From positions 1-64,000 of the forward strand of contig CAIQUS010000093.1 of NCBI GenBank assembly GCA_903875045.1: DNA of 64,000 bases. The letters are read 5' to 3'. Within the stretch, counting starts at the first letter, position 1. Each line of letters opens with the position of its first letter. Under the pieces are notes generated by a model. That model saw only the letters and a program-made list of their open reading frames with translations, was not told the origin of the DNA and ran no database searches. Shown here one piece after another: positions 11,909 through 19,242 of this stretch. This stretch comes from an uncultured Bacteroidales bacterium (lineage in GTDB: Bacteria > Bacteroidota > Bacteroidia > Bacteroidales > FEN-979). The position numbers were made by a program, and so were the translations under genes.

Positions 11909-12751
11909 ATGAGTATAAATGAAATCATTCTTTATATCATGATGGTTTTCATGGTATTGGGAGCTGTTGATAAAATTTTTGGGAACAGGTTCGATCTTGG
12001 GAGTAAATTTGATGAGGGCTTCATGGCCATGGGTCCTCTGGCGATTGCCATGCTGGGCGTTGTCTCCATAGCTCCTGTCCTTGCCAGGGTACTGGGAGTT
12101 GTCGTAGTGCCGGTTTATACTTTTCTGGGTGCCGATCCTGCCATGTTTGCCACAACGCTCCTTGCCAACGACATGGGTGGATACCCGCTCGCCAAAGCGA
12201 TGGCATTAACGCCACAGGCAGGTTCATTCGCGGGATTGATTCTTGGGGCCATGATGGGGCCAACCATTGTATTTACCATCCCTGTGGCATTAGGTATCAT
12301 CCGGAAGGAAGACCACAAATACCTGGCCTCAGGCATCATGATAGGCATGGTTACCATCCCCCTCGGATGTCTTGCAGGTGGGCTCGCCGCAGGAAATGAT
12401 ATATGGATGATCTTTCACAACCTTGTGCCCATTGTGATGTTTGCATTAGTGATCGCTGCGGGCTTGTGGATTGCACCCGGGAAAATGATCCGGGGATTTA
12501 CAATTTTTGGCAAAGGACTCATGATATTCATTACAATATGCACGGTTTTTATCGTGTTGGAAACACTCACAGGGCTTGTTATTATCCCGGGGATGACCCC
12601 GATATGGGATGGCATGAAAATTATCGGGTCAATTTCAATTGTCCTCATCGGTGCATTCCCCATGGTCGCAGTCATCACCAGGGTCTTTGCAAAGCCACTG
12701 TTGAAACTGGGCGGCCTCATCGGGATGAATGACGCGCTGCTGCCGGCATGA
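11909..12751 (+). CDS. eutH: Ethanolamine permease EutH, N-terminal part before a frameshift
   Basis: The first 280 codons encode most of EutH, a membrane protein that moves ethanolamine into the cell. Family features: NEIILYIMMVFMVLGAVDKI at the start, LLANDMGGYPLAK, and MMGPTIVFTIPVALGI. EutH proteins are near 370-400 residues, but this frame stops at TGA 12749-12751 just after GGLIGMND. The family continues there with an A-rich stretch and MIATLAN, which is present in the next frame. One base appears to be missing near 12734-12738 (GCGCTGCTGCC, where an extra G would keep the frame). Either the gene is disrupted or the read has an error. The partner is eutBC directly downstream. Confidence 0.8.
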   Translation: MSINEIILYIMMVFMVLGAVDKIFGNRFDLGSKFDEGFMAMGPLAIAMLGVVSIAPVLARVLGVVVVPVYTFLGADPAMFATTLLANDMGGYPLAKAMALTPQAGSFAGLILGAMMGPTIVFTIPVALGIIRKEDHKYLASGIMIGMVTIPLGCLAGGLAAGNDIWMIFHNLVPIVMFALVIAAGLWIAPGKMIRGFTIFGKGLMIFITICTVFIVLETLTGLVIIPGMTPIWDGMKIIGSISIVLIGAFPMVAVITRVFAKPLLKLGGLIGMNDALLPA

Positions 12752-13047
12752 TAGCCACCCTGGCCAATGCGATCCCCATGCTTACGATGCTAAAAGATAT
12801 GAACCCGAAAGGGAAAATCATTAATATTGCTTTCGCAGTTAGCGCTGCGTTCATCCTGGGAGACCATCTTGGGTTTACTGCAGGTGTTGAGAAAGAGATG
12901 ATATTCCCGATGATCATCGGGAAATTTACGGGAGGTGTAACGGCCGTTGTCGTTGCAGTATTGATCGGGGACAGGATGACAAAAAGTGAGGGCAAAGAGG
13001 CCATGACCAACCAAACTGAATCGGTAAAAGAGAACAAGGAAGTATAA
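12748..13047 (+). CDS. eutH: EutH, C-terminal part after the frameshift
   Basis: This 99-residue frame continues EutH: MIATLANAIPMLTMLKDM, then AFAVSAAFILGDHLGFTAGV, both typical of the family, then a final hydrophobic helix and a charged tail. It overlaps the first part by four bases (ATGA, 12748-12751), so coupled translation of two half-proteins is formally possible, but a split in the middle of a transporter is unlikely. Joined, the two parts give about 379 residues, the normal EutH length. The stop is 1 bp before the eutBC start, which shows one operon. Confidence 0.75.
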   Translation: MIATLANAIPMLTMLKDMNPKGKIINIAFAVSAAFILGDHLGFTAGVEKEMIFPMIIGKFTGGVTAVVVAVLIGDRMTKSEGKEAMTNQTESVKENKEV

Positions 13048-13048
13048 A

Positions 13049-15169
13049 ATGGATATTGAAAAGTATAAACTTATTTTTGCCAAAGCCAATGAATTCAAGG
13101 AGGGAGACCTCTGTGTTGGCGGAACAACTGACAAAGCAGTAAGGCTGGATGCAAAAAAAGAGATCTCGGCTATGAGAATCTCCGGCATTGCAAAACTCGT
13201 TTTTGTTGAAGATGCCATTACCCAGGCGCTCTCACGCTCTGTCGACAGGAATTTACTGAATGAAATCTCCGGTCTCACCATAGCCGGGATGAAGGACATT
13301 TTACTTGGCTCCGGTTGTAGTGCCTGGGTGAAGAAATATTCACCCGCACTGCCCAGCGAGGTCATTGCTGCGGTAGTTAAGATCATGAGCAATGATGATC
13401 TCTCAAAAGTGTCATGTTCCATCTTTAATGTACTCCCTGGCAAAAATCAGGATAAACAGGTTGCTGTTGGTTCTGCAAACCATTTCGGCAGCCGTATCCA
13501 GCCTAACAGCCCGGGCGATGAGGAAGAAGAAATCCTATTTTCAGTTCTGGAAGGCCTGGCTTACGGATGTGGAGATGTCATTATCGGGTTCAATCCGGCC
13601 AGTGATGATATGGAAACCATTGTGCGGACAGAAAAGATACTCCAATCTATCGTAGAACGCCTGAAGTTGCCCACCCGTTACTGTGTTCTTTCAGATATGG
13701 TCAAGCAATCCACGGCTCGTTCTTTTACCAGGGTCGACGTTGGTTTCCAGAGCCTTGCCGGTACTTCAAAATCACTTGTGGGCATGCTTGGACTTGATGT
13801 GGATGGATTACTTGATTTATCTAAAGGCTTTGACGGTCTTTATTTTGAAACCGGGCAGGGGTCCGAGGTGACCAACGGCGCTGCCGAAGGGGTTGATATG
13901 GTCACGCTTGAGGCACGTTGCTACGGGCTTGCACGGTATTTACAGCAGCAATCCGGTAAAAAATGGATGATCGTGAATGACGTCGCAGGATTCATTGGTC
14001 CCGAAGTATTCAAAACAGGCCCTCAACTGTTAAGGACATGCCTTGAAGATGTGGTAATGGCAAAATTACACGGCCTTACCATGGGACTTGATGTTTGTTC
14101 CACATTCCACATGGGAATCAACCCCGACGAACTGAAGTCACTCACGACGACAATAGTAAAAGTTGCCGCACCGGCCTACCTCATGTCCGTTGCCGGAGAA
14201 GCCGATCCCATGCTTGGCTATCTTACAACTTCCTACCGTGAACACCCGCGACTGAGATCATCCGCGCACAAAGAGATTTCAGGCGCGATGAAGGAGAGGC
14301 TTATGACCCTTGGTGTCACCGCCCCGGATGGAATTGCAGATGGCAACCCTGATAAGACCATAAATTTGTATGCACGGTATATGAACGAAGGAGGGGATAC
14401 CAGGACTGTTGAGGAACTCAGGCTCGAAGGACAAAAGAAAATCAAAACTCTTCAGGAAAAAGGTTGCGACCTAGGGTTTGGTTTCGGACCGGGTTTGTCC
14501 GACCCTCCTCAAATTTCAACCAGAATTGAAACTATTTACAGGCATGCGAGAAACGCAATTTATGCCAGTCTTGATGCCGCTGTAATCCGCGATTGCTGTC
14601 AGCGCCATATCGATGTTGCAACAAATTCCGCAGACAGGGAAGATTATCTCGCCCATCCTGCAACAGGTGAATCGATTGCCGGAAAAGACACCTTTATCCT
14701 CGAAAGACTTCTGGCCGGAAGTGTGACTCCTCCGGAGGTACAGTTTGCAATATCCGACGGACTGAATGCAGATGCGATCAACGAAAACCTCCGGAATTTT
14801 CTTCCGAAATTAAAATGGGAATTAAAGGAATCAGGATTCCTTCTGTCCGACACGGATGTAATCATCAGGAACGGAAGGGTGAGGGCCGGATATCATGTGG
14901 CACAGATTTGCAAACCCGTGATCCTGATCCATCTGATTGGTGAAAGACCCGGAACAGGGTTAAACCAGCTCTCAGTGTATATGACTTATGGGAAAGACCC
15001 TGCCGGGAATTTCCGCTGGAGCCCTCAGATGGACCATTCCTTTACCACGGCGATATGCAGCATACATCCAAAAGGAAAGACAACTGATTCGGCTGTTTCC
15101 GACATCATAAAATGCGTCAGGCGAATGACCGAACTACAATGTTCAGGCGTGTTGCTTGGAAAAGAATAA
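13049..15169 (+). CDS. eutBC: Fused ethanolamine ammonia-lyase, EutB-EutC
   Basis: A 706-residue protein that joins the two subunits of adenosylcobalamin-dependent ethanolamine ammonia-lyase (ethanolamine to acetaldehyde + NH3). Residues 1 to about 450 are EutB: FKEGDLCVGG, DVIIGFNPASDD, VGFQSLAGTSKS, YFETGQGSEVTNGAAEGVD, GLDVCSTFHMGINPDEL. Residues about 520-706 are EutC: TPPEVQFAISDGLNADAI, IIRNGRVRAGYHVAQI, LIGERPGTGLNQLSVYMTYG. The subunits are normally separate genes. eutH is 1 bp upstream; no shell (microcompartment) or reactivase genes are nearby, so this is a minimal, probably nitrogen-scavenging, route that depends on vitamin B12. Confidence 0.9.
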   Translation: MDIEKYKLIFAKANEFKEGDLCVGGTTDKAVRLDAKKEISAMRISGIAKLVFVEDAITQALSRSVDRNLLNEISGLTIAGMKDILLGSGCSAWVKKYSPALPSEVIAAVVKIMSNDDLSKVSCSIFNVLPGKNQDKQVAVGSANHFGSRIQPNSPGDEEEEILFSVLEGLAYGCGDVIIGFNPASDDMETIVRTEKILQSIVERLKLPTRYCVLSDMVKQSTARSFTRVDVGFQSLAGTSKSLVGMLGLDVDGLLDLSKGFDGLYFETGQGSEVTNGAAEGVDMVTLEARCYGLARYLQQQSGKKWMIVNDVAGFIGPEVFKTGPQLLRTCLEDVVMAKLHGLTMGLDVCSTFHMGINPDELKSLTTTIVKVAAPAYLMSVAGEADPMLGYLTTSYREHPRLRSSAHKEISGAMKERLMTLGVTAPDGIADGNPDKTINLYARYMNEGGDTRTVEELRLEGQKKIKTLQEKGCDLGFGFGPGLSDPPQISTRIETIYRHARNAIYASLDAAVIRDCCQRHIDVATNSADREDYLAHPATGESIAGKDTFILERLLAGSVTPPEVQFAISDGLNADAINENLRNFLPKLKWELKESGFLLSDTDVIIRNGRVRAGYHVAQICKPVILIHLIGERPGTGLNQLSVYMTYGKDPAGNFRWSPQMDHSFTTAICSIHPKGKTTDSAVSDIIKCVRRMTELQCSGVLLGKE

Positions 15170-15210: not shown

Positions 15211-16032
15211 TCATTGTTTAATTAATACGATCACCCGTTCATTGACATTTAAAACTTGAGATCCATTCTGATATTCTCTCCAGGGCTGTTTCCAAAATCG
15301 ATGACCGCAAATTATCAGATTTTTTGGTGAGGTTTCAATAATCTGCCGGATTTTTTCGTTTCCATCAAAATAATCAGCTCCAAAATCAGGGCTTTCATGT
15401 AAAACCATCAAGTCAGGCTGATCATCAAGCATGGTTCTTAAAGTTGTCAGATATTCATCCTCCTCTACTCTGTTTGGTTTTAAATGATTGCCAATGATCC
15501 CGCTGATTCCGGAAATTTTAAAATCATCAATCAATACGGATTCTTTGTGCAAAATTGCAATGTTTTCTTCCTTCCTGAATCGTGGTTCGTCAACTTTATA
15601 TACGCCAATTTTATCGTGATTCCCGTTTACTCCGACAACCCACCTGAAAGCATCTCTGAAACTGGTATATACCTTTCTCACATCACCATACCCACCTCGT
15701 CTGTCAATCGGTGCATATAGATCGCCAGCCAAAATCACCCCTGTCTTTTGATTCGAAATTTTGAATTCTGCTTCGATCAGTGATCTCAAATATTCTGCAA
15801 GATGTTCGCCTAAAAGACCAGTACGCCCATTGGCATCAACATTACCCTGCAGATCAGATGCAAAGATCAATGCATCAATGTTTGTGACCGATTTTTCAAA
15901 AACACCTGTTTGAATTGGCAAATATCGTTCAATGAGTTTATTGCTTCCATCCTCATTTAAATCGTATCGGGGACCTGCACTCTTATATGCAAATGAACCG
16001 ATCGGGTTGTTGTCAACTTGAATTATTTTCAT
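15211..16032 (-). CDS. Calcineurin-like metallophosphoesterase
   Basis: A 273-residue protein from the ATG at 16032; an in-frame ATG at 16119 would add 29 residues of low-complexity sequence and is less likely. It has the metal-binding blocks of the family in order: DALIFASDLQGN, VILAGDLY, VVGVNGNHDKIG, LMVLHESP and LIICGHRFW. The first block is SDLQGN rather than D-x-H, a change found in some subfamilies. It probably hydrolyses a phosphate ester of unknown identity. It is convergent with eutBC and divergent from the retron-linked ATPase gene 250 bp away; a role in the defence cassette is only a guess from position. Confidence 0.75.
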   Translation of the reverse strand: MKIIQVDNNPIGSFAYKSAGPRYDLNEDGSNKLIERYLPIQTGVFEKSVTNIDALIFASDLQGNVDANGRTGLLGEHLAEYLRSLIEAEFKISNQKTGVILAGDLYAPIDRRGGYGDVRKVYTSFRDAFRWVVGVNGNHDKIGVYKVDEPRFRKEENIAILHKESVLIDDFKISGISGIIGNHLKPNRVEEDEYLTTLRTMLDDQPDLMVLHESPDFGADYFDGNEKIRQIIETSPKNLIICGHRFWKQPWREYQNGSQVLNVNERVIVLIKQ

Positions 16033-16281
16033 AAATTTTAGAATAAATCCTGCAAATACCTCATTCCAATTTCCCCCTTTTGATGTTGAAGCGGTCGTTT
16101 CCTGAGAAAAACAGGACATGAAACTCCGTATAATGAATCTGCCATAAAGATATGGATTAATTTTCAGCGGTCCTGACCGGGGAATCCCAGCGAAGGGTAA
16201 TGATATTATTTATTAACAATGGAAAAGCCCGGTTAATATCTCTATACCTTTACATGATTCTAAAACCTGATAAAAAGAACC

Positions 16282-17325
16282 ATGAATGACCTGTTAATCA
16301 GCCTGCAATCAATCATCCGTGATTCACCTGTTGATGATACGGAAATCATCAATCGGTTGAGGAACCTGGTTTTTGAGCATGAAATAAATTCCTGCACGCC
16401 AAATGAATCTAAGGCTTTTTGGGATTTGTACACCAAAAACGTGACCGGATGGCAGGATAATGCCGGTACAAACCAATTAATCAGAAGTGGTTTCAGCAAT
16501 CTGGATGAAGTGATAGGTGGATTTTCCCCTGGTGAATTTGTGGTGATTGGTGGCAGGCCGGCAATGGGAAAGACTCAACTTTGTGTGAATCTGGTTTTAA
16601 ACATATCACATAATCAACCTGTTTTATATTTCACCTTTGACCTGTCGGAATATCTTTTAGTCTGTCGTTTTATATCTGCACTCACCGGCATTGCCGTTAG
16701 CAGGATAATCCAACATGATTTGTCAGGGGACGAAAAACTGGCGGTAACGGAACTGAGTAAAGAGATTCAAAAACACCCCATATTCTTCAATGACAGCTAT
16801 AACAGCTCCATTTCGGCTTTCAAAGCACATTGCACGAGGCAGATTCAGGAGAATGGCATAAAAGTGATTGTTGTGGATTATCTTCAAATGATGAGTTCGC
16901 ACCGGTACAGGAATAGCCGGGAATTGGAGATCAGTTATATCAGCCGGGAACTGAAATCAATCGCAAAGGATAACAATGTTTGTGTCATAGCAACCAGCCA
17001 GTTAAGCCGGGCACCGGAAAAACGTTCCATGACATCCAAACCAATTCTCTCCGACTTAAGGGATAGTGGAGCTATTGAACAGGATGCAGATAAAGTTATT
17101 TTTATTTACCGTCCTGAATACTACGGGATTGATGTTGACGAATCAGGGAACAGTACCGCAGGGTTGACGGAATTAATCGTTGCGAAGAATAGAAATGGAA
17201 GTTTAGGATCAGCAAACCTTAAAAGGAATGCGGTTTTTTCTTCTTTTTCGGACTTTACGGAGTCAACAAATGTGTTTTCATTTTTCCCCGGCAGAATTGA
17301 CGAAATAGATAAGGCACCATTTTAA
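16282..17325 (+). CDS. DnaB C-terminal-domain RecA-like ATPase, first gene of retron cassette
   Basis: A 347-residue protein that consists of the helicase domain of DnaB without the usual N-terminal primase-binding domain. Seen: Walker A GRPAMGKT at residues 91-98, Walker B IKVIVVDYLQ at 191-200, SRELKSIAKDNNVCVIATSQL and LSDLRDSGAIEQDADKVIFIYRPEYY, both DnaB signatures. Replicative DnaB is near 450-500 residues. Its stop is only 12 bp before the a1 repeat of the retron RNA, so the RNA and reverse transcriptase are probably on its transcript. I infer that it is either an effector or an accessory of the retron; a helicase unrelated to the retron is the alternative. Confidence 0.8.
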   Translation: MNDLLISLQSIIRDSPVDDTEIINRLRNLVFEHEINSCTPNESKAFWDLYTKNVTGWQDNAGTNQLIRSGFSNLDEVIGGFSPGEFVVIGGRPAMGKTQLCVNLVLNISHNQPVLYFTFDLSEYLLVCRFISALTGIAVSRIIQHDLSGDEKLAVTELSKEIQKHPIFFNDSYNSSISAFKAHCTRQIQENGIKVIVVDYLQMMSSHRYRNSRELEISYISRELKSIAKDNNVCVIATSQLSRAPEKRSMTSKPILSDLRDSGAIEQDADKVIFIYRPEYYGIDVDESGNSTAGLTELIVAKNRNGSLGSANLKRNAVFSSFSDFTESTNVFSFFPGRIDEIDKAPF

Positions 17326-17337
17326 TCCGATGATATT

Positions 17338-17501
17338 GAGCCGTTGCTTAAAATTATGAGTCATTATGTTTGATTTTGTGGTTGTGTACCTGCAACCCGG
17401 TGGAGAATAGCAGTAATGAACTCTCGCAGTTTACTGCGATGCTCGCTACGCTCCGCTTCTCATAAACAGCGACCTGATAAACAGATAATTGGCAACGGCT
17501 C
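17338..17501 (+). ncRNA. Retron msr-msd RNA
   Basis: Between the ATPase and the reverse transcriptase lie the flanking repeats of a retron RNA. a1 GAGCCGTTGC (17338-17347) is the exact reverse complement of a2 GCAACGGCTC (17492-17501). The stem goes on after a small bulge with AATTAT (17352-17357) pairing ATAATT (17485-17490). The first G after a1 (17358) or G17360 is the expected branch guanosine. Inside are hairpins GGTTG/CAACC (17380-17384 with 17393-17397) in the msr part and TCGCAG-TTTA-CTGCGA (17424-17439) in the msd part, enclosed by GAGAA/TTCTC (17403-17407 with 17457-17461). Ten T bases follow a2, then the reverse transcriptase start at 17515. Boundaries of msr and msd are inferred. 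Confidence 0.8.
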
Positions 17502-17514
17502 TTTTTTTTTTCCT

Positions 17515-18627
17515 ATGAACAGGACAGATGAAATAAGGACATTAGCAATCCGGGAAAAGGAAACAATATGGAACTGGTTCCATGGGAACCATGGTGCCAG
17601 GATTCCCCATAGCCTGAATAAGTTACAGAAACACGAATTAAACACTTTGCTTCTGCTGTCGATTGAGAAACCAGTAGAACTTTGCAGGTTTTTGAGGACT
17701 CCGTTTTTTAGGTTAGAGTACATCATGAATCATCCCTCCTACCAATTTTTCACCATTGAGAAGAAGAAAGGTGGTAACCGGGAGATTTACGCACCCGATC
17801 CTGAATTGAAGAAGATCCAGAAACAATTGAATTATTTTCTCCAGGCGTATTACCTGGCTGTCAAACCAAAGGAAGTTTATGGATTTGTGATCAATCCCCA
17901 CTATTTGGGGGAGTATTGTAATATCGTCGAAAATGCAACCCATCATGTTGGGAAAAAACATCTGCTGAACATTGACCTCAAGGACTTTTTCCCCGGCATC
18001 AGTGCCAACAGGGTAAGAGCTGTTTTCAGGTCAGAAATCTTTGGTTTCAATGACCAAATATCCACTGCATTGACCCTTCTGACAACCTTTCAGGGGAAGT
18101 TACCAATCGGAGCTCCCACATCCCCGGTAATTTCAAACTTTGTATGCCATCAACTTGACACTGAGTTAACCGGATTTTGCCAAATTCACAATCTAACATA
18201 CACCCGTTACGCAGATGACCTGACCTTTTCTTCAAATGATCCAATTATCCCATTGATGATTGAGGGGATTGTGAATCAGATCAGAAACAACCATTTCGAG
18301 ATCAACACCAGGAAAACCCGGTTAACAGCAAACAACCGGAAGCAATCTGTTACAGGGATTACAGTGAATGAAAAAGTAAATGTTGACCGGAAACTATTAA
18401 AGAAAATCAGGGCGATGTCACACGACCTTTCAATGAATGGGATTGTGTCTGCAACCCGTAACCACTTTGATGTGAAGGGAGAAGTTGACCCTAAGTTACA
18501 GGAGAGATTCATGAACCGACTTTGTGGTTATATCAATTTCATAGGACAGGTGAGGGGGAAGAGTGATTTGCTTTATTTGAAAGTTAAATCAGCGTTTCAT
18601 CCGGACCAGAAGGAAAATATCCGGTAA
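17515..18627 (+). CDS. Retron reverse transcriptase
   Basis: A 370-residue reverse transcriptase started at the ATG at 17515; the upstream in-frame ATG at 17416 lies inside the msd hairpin and is rejected. It has the retron-specific signatures: NAxxH in region X (NATHH, residues 140-144) and VTG in region Y (residues 279-281). The catalytic core has IDLKDFFPGI (block with the first Asp), LPIGAPTSPVISNF and YADD (232-235). Retron enzymes use the RNA encoded just upstream to make a branched RNA-DNA (msDNA) and act in phage defence with a partner protein. Partners here would be the ATPase upstream or the phosphatase downstream; neither is a retron effector I recognise. Confidence 0.92.
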   Translation: MNRTDEIRTLAIREKETIWNWFHGNHGARIPHSLNKLQKHELNTLLLLSIEKPVELCRFLRTPFFRLEYIMNHPSYQFFTIEKKKGGNREIYAPDPELKKIQKQLNYFLQAYYLAVKPKEVYGFVINPHYLGEYCNIVENATHHVGKKHLLNIDLKDFFPGISANRVRAVFRSEIFGFNDQISTALTLLTTFQGKLPIGAPTSPVISNFVCHQLDTELTGFCQIHNLTYTRYADDLTFSSNDPIIPLMIEGIVNQIRNNHFEINTRKTRLTANNRKQSVTGITVNEKVNVDRKLLKKIRAMSHDLSMNGIVSATRNHFDVKGEVDPKLQERFMNRLCGYINFIGQVRGKSDLLYLKVKSAFHPDQKENIR

Positions 18628-18684: not shown

Positions 18685-19242
18685 ATGTCGCTCGACCATA
18701 CTTCAGGCTCAGTAAATTTTCGGGATGTGGGTGAATTCGTAAACCTGCTTTCTGGGAAGGAATTGATGCGAGAGAAGCGGTTGTTCAGGGGAGGAAAAAC
18801 TGATTTTTGTCTGACCGCCTCAGATATTGAGACCCCCGGAACAATTATCAATTTACGGCAGAGACAGGATACCAGGGATTTTGGAGCCAGGATGATTCAT
18901 TGTCCGGTTTCAAACGATATTGAAAAATACAACACAACGGTTCCGGAAGTAAGGATCTGGCTTCACAGTGTCTTCAGGAAGTTTGAAAATCATGAACTCC
19001 CCATGCCCCTGTTCATTCATTGCCTTTCGGGTAAAGACCGCACGGGAATTGTCATTGGAGTTGTTTTAATAATGTTGAATATCCCACGGGAAATTATCCT
19101 TGAAGAATACCTTCTCAGCGAAGGGGAATTACAAAGAGAATTATTTAACGACGCAATGGAAGGGATCGGAAACCCGGTTGTCTATTTCAGAAAGTTGGAT
19201 GTTCTGAGAATATCAGATAATTTATCCGGTTGGTTTTTATAA
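18685..19242 (+). CDS. Tyrosine/dual-specificity protein phosphatase
   Basis: A 185-residue protein from the ATG at 18685; a TTG at 18646 in frame would add 13 residues. It has the family start SVNFRDVGEFVN and LFRGGKTD, and the catalytic loop HCLSGKDRTG (C113, R119), the C-x5-R signature of cysteine phosphatases. It follows the retron reverse transcriptase by 57 bp on the same strand, so it may be the last part of the retron operon. Substrates could be phosphoproteins, phosphoinositides or RNA 5' ends; the sequence does not say which. Confidence 0.75.
   Translation: MSLDHTSGSVNFRDVGEFVNLLSGKELMREKRLFRGGKTDFCLTASDIETPGTIINLRQRQDTRDFGARMIHCPVSNDIEKYNTTVPEVRIWLHSVFRKFENHELPMPLFIHCLSGKDRTGIVIGVVLIMLNIPREIILEEYLLSEGELQRELFNDAMEGIGNPVVYFRKLDVLRISDNLSGWFL

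Follow-up and report, generated by a model that had tools for sequence, protein, structure and literature searches.

We analysed a retron locus in a 64,000-nucleotide stretch of DNA from an uncultured Bacteroidales bacterium (contig CAIQUS010000093.1; hereafter the window). Bacterial retrons, in which an RNA and a reverse transcriptase together produce a small DNA, serve in most cases in phage defence. The locus probably represents an undescribed type of retron composed of three parts, a DnaB-like gene whose product would act as effector, an msr-msd RNA and a reverse transcriptase (RT), which lie on one strand in that order. The three parts, their order and their co-conservation were read from comparison of loci, and the structure of the RNA from covariation. 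A sequence-only reading had described positions 17338-18627 as a complete retron. The identification of this segment as retron RNA and RT is supported by the RNA, the RT and the covariation, but its completeness did not hold, as the DnaB-like gene lies upstream of it (Table 1).

Table 1. Positions of the retron parts and RNA elements in the window
Feature	Position	Strand	Basis
DnaB-like ATPase, 347 aa, putative retron effector	16282..17325	+	Pfam DnaB_C, E 4.9e-76
Retron RNA (msr-msd), a1 to a2	17338..17501	+	R1 covariance model match 17334-17504, 156 bits; covariation
a1 repeat GAGCCGTTGC	17338..17347	+	Helix 1 with 17492-17501, 98.4% of cells paired
a1-side inner extension AATTAT	17352..17357	+	Pairs with 17485-17490 (helix 2)
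Candidate priming (branch) G in TTATG	17358..17358	+	Putative; G invariant in 19 aligned RNAs, just inside the stem
Conserved msr hairpin GGTTG...CAACC	17380..17397	+	Helix 4, 97.9% of cells paired, 1/5 pairs with two-sided change
msd hairpin, arms 17424-17433 and 17463-17472	17424..17472	+	Helix 5; one A-A mismatch in the window
a2-side inner extension ATAATT	17485..17490	+	Pairs with 17352-17357 (helix 2)
a2 repeat GCAACGGCTC	17492..17501	+	Sequence; helix 1; pairing across loci
T10 run after a2, putative terminator-like RNA 3' end	17502..17511	+	Sequence
Retron reverse transcriptase, 370 aa	17515..18627	+	Motifs, HMM scores, nearest structures, AlphaFold fold match

Co-conservation of the DnaB-like gene and the reverse transcriptase

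Genome contigs were searched with a profile built from an alignment of four RTs, and the best 80 of 473 loci were examined. The RT scored above 280 bits in 33 of these 80, and 32 of the 33 had a DnaB-like gene immediately upstream in the same orientation; the exception was L103, whose contig begins inside the RT. Among the other 47 loci, L116 and L135 each had a more weakly matching DnaB-like gene upstream, with one more match downstream in L135, and L159 showed DnaB-like matches downstream only. When open reading frames (ORFs) of at least 80 aa from 35 non-redundant loci, some of them on contigs with short flanks, were clustered, the RT was present in 35/35 and the DnaB-like gene in 34/35 loci, the one exception being a contig that begins inside the RT, and any other cluster occurred in at most 6/35.

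It could be argued that the DnaB-like gene is a chance neighbour, for example a leftover phage replication gene, as a Mu-like prophage is found some 8 kb downstream of the retron. The two genes are, however, kept together in 34 of 35 loci with mostly different neighbours otherwise, and this co-conservation contradicts the explanation and renders it very improbable. Furthermore, RT and DnaB-like distances were correlated across 33 loci (r 0.83; 0/2000 permutations as high), and both genes are under purifying selection, as dN/dS in six locus pairs ranged from 0.05 to 0.17 in the DnaB-like gene and from 0.09 to 0.21 in the RT. Between the window and L021, where synonymous sites are near saturation, the RNA was 87.8% identical (144/164) and the two genes were 69.0 and 66.5% identical.

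According to their host titles, the loci belong mostly to Bacteroidota, in addition to one bin each of Ignavibacteria and Verrucomicrobia and another (L104) that carries the title Rhizobium; since the nearest rows of L104 are Flavobacteriia, it may be a mixed bin. All three parts were also found in the isolate record of Flavobacterium branchiophilum NBRC 15030 (L091). The genome G002 encodes an RT that is 64% identical to that of the window and carries the DnaB-like gene and the RNA in different flanks. In a sample of the order, 11/393 genomes had an RT match with an E value of at most 1e-40, and the DnaB-like gene was seen in only three of these 11, the window's own genome (G000), G671 and G742; the latter two belong to other families of the order and carry the RNA as well. 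Among 61 relatives the RNA was found only in G000 and G002, once each. This patchy pattern is not a housekeeping distribution. It thus makes it unlikely that the system serves host replication or repair instead of phage defence, even though a relative of a replication protein with intact motor motifs, found in varied genomic settings, would be in line with such a role.

A search of plasmid DNA gave no match, and a search of genome contigs with query P0001 alone gave no confirmed relative by a pattern method that reaches near relatives only. Protein searches returned 55 phage and 216 plasmid records, all below 60% identity. In two related loci (L102:3195-4537 and L104:2-1609) a second RT-like frame was seen upstream of the DnaB-linked retron, at a distance of a few kb.

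The retron RNA and its reverse transcriptase

The window contains, as had been noticed from its letters, an a1/a2 repeat of 10 bp with perfect complementarity, a 6-bp stem that prolongs it, internal hairpins, of which the msr and msd hairpins are the family-conserved helices 4 and 5, a T10 run and a spacer of 13 nt (17502-17514) between a2 and the ATG of the RT. The RNA is short (164 nt), and its predicted fold reached -59.8 kcal/mol (z -5.23, 0/200 shuffles as good); the minimum-energy fold omits the family-conserved msd hairpin. A non-coding RNA with complementary ends that adjoins the RT, and the combination of msr hairpin(s) with one long msd hairpin, are features of retrons. An ORF listed from 17416 merely takes an earlier in-frame ATG of the RT. 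An Rfam scan of the window gave no match at the gathering score and five sub-threshold matches in 17250-17560.

Covariation was assessed on 19 aligned RNAs with a structure of 34 pairs in five helices. RNAalifold alone recovered a1/a2 and the msr hairpin, together with half of the msd stem and one 2-bp stem, and helices 2 and 3 were named by hand. In the five-helix structure 93.6% of the paired cells were able to pair, compared to 29.5-48.8% when the structure was slid along the alignment, a comparison that favours the unslid structure since it was drawn partly from the window. Changes on both sides were found in 16/34 pairs versus 7.7 in shuffles, and the covariation score was 0.190 as compared to 0.082 in shuffled and 0.026-0.046 in slid versions. 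Covariation is located mainly in a1/a2 (6/10 pairs changed on both sides) and the msd stem (8/10), while helices 2, 3 and 4 accounted for 1, 0 and 1 such pairs. Five of the six pairs of helix 2 were invariant, so that this helix provides little covariation evidence. In the msd stem 86.6% of the cells were paired. The sequence of the msd hairpin varies widely and a stem was still found there in most loci; a simple script applied per locus chose another stem in several loci, the window included.

Pairing of a1 with a2 is conserved in homologous loci, as at least 9 contiguous positions were able to pair in 33/33 loci tested (L116, L135 and L134 were left aside). The contiguous pairing comprised 9-14 positions with a mean of 11.2, compared to 8.8 when a2 was taken from another locus; L101 did not exceed its cross mean, L091 exceeded it by 0.1, and L086, L089, L104 and L106 by less than 1. 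Soon after a2, the longest T-run measured 3-10 in 33/33 loci, a count without background control.

A covariance model (R1) was built from the 19 RNAs, one of which is that of the window, and was run over 82 sources, consisting of 35 DnaB-linked and 47 other RT loci. R1 matched 33/35 DnaB-linked loci with E values no higher than 0.0022; 14 of these loci were outside the training set. The matches sat between the DnaB-like gene and the RT, in some loci with ends overlapping a gene by a few bases. In the 47 other RT loci no match was obtained at E up to 1. L103 is without the RNA region, and an antisense match (E 0.7) was seen in L095.

The RT displays the motifs NAxxH (140-144), YADD (232-235) and VTG (279-281) in its translation, as the sequence-only reading had stated. 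These are the motifs given for retron RTs in PMC6868368 and PMC12405507. Residues N140, A141, H144, A233, D234, D235, V279, T280 and G281 were invariant in 32 RTs including that of the window, and Y232 was nearly so. Retron RT models of PADLOC scored up to 319 bits, with the RT-Toprim model I-C as best match followed by RT-protease XI and RT-TIR XII; all three matches covered the RT part only. NCBIfam retron models scored 208-260 bits, which is below their curated cut-offs, as compared to 49 bits for the group II intron RT model. The closest solved sequences were those of retrons Ec67 and Ec86, and an AlphaFold model (predicted local distance difference test, pLDDT, 90) matched the folds of retrons Eco2, Ec86, Eco7 and others, followed by DRT2, group II intron and diversity-generating retroelement (DGR) RTs. 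Judged by hidden Markov model (HMM) scores and fold, the enzyme thus belongs with retron RTs and not with those of group II introns or DGRs.

Retron Eco2 (Ec67), of type I-C, has the closest solved RT by both sequence and fold, and among the PADLOC models, too, I-C matched best with its RT part. According to PMC12405507, the ends of the Eco2 RNA are complementary, and it forms a short RNA stem-loop as well as a single long msd hairpin, as is the case here. Its effector is a fused Toprim domain, whereas the RT of the window is unfused and has a separate upstream DnaB-like gene as partner. The RT domains of types XI (RT-protease) and XII (RT-TIR) scored nearly as well as that of I-C, but their effectors are fused to the RT and no such fusion was found here. 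With no modelled effector, either fused or adjacent, the locus falls outside the retron types of PADLOC-DB 2.0.0.

The DnaB-like protein as putative effector

The DnaB-like gene ends 12 nt upstream of a1. Its product consists of a linker helix and a RecA-type helicase domain, and the window protein (P0002) gave no match to the N-terminal domain PF00772. The AlphaFold model (pLDDT 86) best matched E. coli DnaB with DnaG and the DnaB-substrate complex 4esv; NCBIfam matches of two DnaB-like proteins were helicase, RadA and KaiC models. The DnaB_C domain, the linker helix and an acidic PF tail are shared with the replicative helicase DnaB. Unlike the latter, the window protein is without the N-terminal domain and scores below the family cut-off (264.5 versus 385.25 bits). 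At position 241 of the 2r6a/4esv protein, which we take to be the catalytic Glu of DnaB, the 33 DnaB-like proteins carry Asp (27), Glu (5) or Gly (1). The Walker A Lys and the Walker B Asp were each retained in 32/33, and the residue presumed to be the arginine finger is Arg in 26/33.

The C-terminus ends in PF preceded by acidic residues in 28/33 DnaB-like proteins, and the host single-stranded DNA-binding protein (SSB) ends in EDDLPF. A retron-specific tail that mimics SSB was rejected, as the PF end is also found in 21/25 closed host DnaB frames; the tail is kept but probably inherited. Most host replicative DnaBs (L164-L187, L189) of these Bacteroidota thus carry such an acidic, SSB-like tail themselves.

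None of the 33 DnaB-like proteins was matched by a retron effector model of PADLOC-DB 2.0.0 at E 0.001, the only matching models being mad8, Nhi and PDC-S73, and a DnaB-like retron effector was not found in the collection of literature searched, to which this negative is limited. In some known retrons an effector is held back by an RT complex with multicopy single-stranded DNA (msDNA) until a signal from a phage is received (PMC13405049 and PMC12887533). By this analogy the DnaB-like protein is likely the effector and would act on replication.

For comparison, retron Eco8 has an ATPase of the ABC type with a nuclease domain and not a RecA/DnaB motor, and its RT is only distantly similar; we take Eco8 to be of type I-B. 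Like the window's system, Eco8 possesses a separate effector with an ATPase domain (OLD ATPase-Toprim), and its trigger, phage SSB, is tied to DNA replication (PMC12887533).

The DnaB-like protein may instead belong to the retron without being its toxin, as an ATPase that loads onto the msDNA fork, remodels it or detects it, or that links it with the replisome of the host, the effect being exerted by another activity. The ATP-site residues are kept, the Pfam scan of the protein revealed no nuclease or other toxic domain, and in Eco8 the ATP-binding residues are required for defence while ATPase activity was not detected (PMC12887533). However, since no other cluster was present in more than 6/35 loci, an alternative toxin does not appear to be encoded nearby, albeit on contigs some of which are short-flanked, and we regard this alternative as rather unlikely.

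The origin of the protein was addressed by a tree from which L090, being truncated, and L093/L095, which share their contigs with L069/L070, were left out; alignment A10 was without L090 and L103. Host DnaBs (24) and one L159 protein formed one side of a branch with support 74, which likewise speaks against a chance neighbour. L111-L114 were closest to the host DnaBs and L134 had a very long branch. The N-terminal domain PF00772 is retained in L113, L114 and L134, which are long or divergent rows. Both the tree and this retention would fit capture of a DnaB followed by later trimming.

In the first RT tree, 11 RTs of a Cas1-linked kind fell inside the DnaB-linked group. Constraining the 35 DnaB-linked RTs as one clade gave a higher likelihood (p-AU 0.93, quick trees), and the tree therefore allows such a clade without proving it. 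Together the 35 and the 11 RTs formed a 46-row group with support 98. For these CRISPR-associated retron-like RTs of Bacteroidota, Cas1 was a neighbour in 5/5 loci scanned and the rest were judged by eye; no DnaB-like gene was found beside them, and no R1 match in the 6 of 11 loci searched. The window's own genome carries a second retron-like RT beside a Cas1 gene (G000:C244; compare L022:1564-2694), and similar Cas1-linked RTs from Bacteroidota cluster beside the DnaB-linked retrons.

In L116:4945-6805 (Bacilli) and L135:3076-5066 (Tenericutes) a short DnaB_C ATPase of their own (246-262 aa; E 4.7e-43 and 1.9e-43) was observed, with a conserved, RNA-like intergenic stretch and an RT downstream of it. 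Their retron-type RTs fall away from the main group and R1 finds no match there. These two loci may point to a second, distant retron lineage with a DnaB_C ATPase, which we consider a lead and not a result. In the pair L104 and L107 the DnaB-like proteins were 83.5% but the RTs only 62.4% identical, a gap far larger than in the other five pairs, which could be due to swapping or to more rapid change in the sensor half.

Genomic surroundings and proposed mode of action

The retron is flanked by a phosphoesterase gene (15211-16119) and a tyrosine-phosphatase-like gene (18685-19242). The latter follows the RT after 57 nt on the same strand (Pfam Y_phosphatase3, E 1.1e-19), a position that could suggest an effector. 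However, no relative of it was found in RT loci L002-L083, and in G014:C85 it adjoins a phosphoesterase gene with no retron between, so that it was rejected as effector and we give this idea next to no credence. The upstream phosphoesterase was rejected as retron part as well. The arrangement of both genes in G014 differs, and hence it is not a clean empty site. At about 26200-58633 the window carries the Mu-like prophage (transposase, transposition protein, portal, terminase, tail sheath, tape measure, baseplate), outside of which the retron lies, and at 11909-15169 a gene for EutH next to one for an ethanolamine ammonia-lyase of 706 aa in which EutB and EutC are fused.

A number of observations weigh against a three-part defence retron with a DnaB-like effector. 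Among 134 proteins flanking 28 loci, viewed through 25 of their 226 families and with no control set, defence-like matches included type I methyltransferase, SoFic and MADS, each in 2-3 proteins, so that defence-gene neighbours are scattered and lack a control. Among viral contigs (queries P0001, A1 and A7) no relative was confirmed by the pattern method, which reaches near relatives only. The distance correlation may be explained by shared descent alone. As for the RNA, further pair types numbered 26 versus 23.5 in shuffles, with 50/500 shuffles reaching 26, helix 3 lacks any pair changed on both sides, and the RNA of L134 was only a weak R1 match (E 0.25). Asp at the catalytic-Glu position in 27/33 proteins implies that the motor may be slow, and retention of the N-terminal domain in L113, L114 and L134 indicates that its loss is not essential. 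Finally, the candidate branch G lies just inside the stem, the position described for retrons, but the AGC-like priming contexts of known retrons (TAGC, CAGA, CAGC, GAGC, ACGC; PMC6868368) are absent. The conserved context here is TTATG, and priming would thus differ from what has been described. The same source lists Sen1 as a validated retron without an apparent priming G, and an AGC-like context is therefore typical of most, not all, validated retrons.

With the DnaB-like protein as effector, the following sequence of events can be proposed, in which msDNA, toxicity and defence are inferred. The RT would prime from G17358 and copy the msd (about 17400-17484), giving rise to a branched RNA-DNA with a hairpin, and the RT-msDNA complex would restrain the DnaB-like protein. 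A signal from the phage that acts on the msDNA would release this protein, and the freed protein, a RecA-type motor without N-terminal domain, might engage replication forks, or DnaB and its partners, so that replication would stop and the infection be aborted. In this way the DnaB-like partner may poison replication. As a more tentative extension, which we put forward as a possibility only, this retron type was perhaps assembled twice, and its msDNA might imitate the fork or primer bound by a DnaB-like ring, which upon phage attack would be freed to invade or block replisomes and shut down replication.

A partner derived from a replicative helicase would add a fork-targeting defence to those of retrons and provide a natural helicase variant to study, and the RNA, with its strong covariation, would provide a new family for msDNA production. 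As the constant third part of the retron, the DnaB-like partner suggests that the defence is directed at DNA replication.
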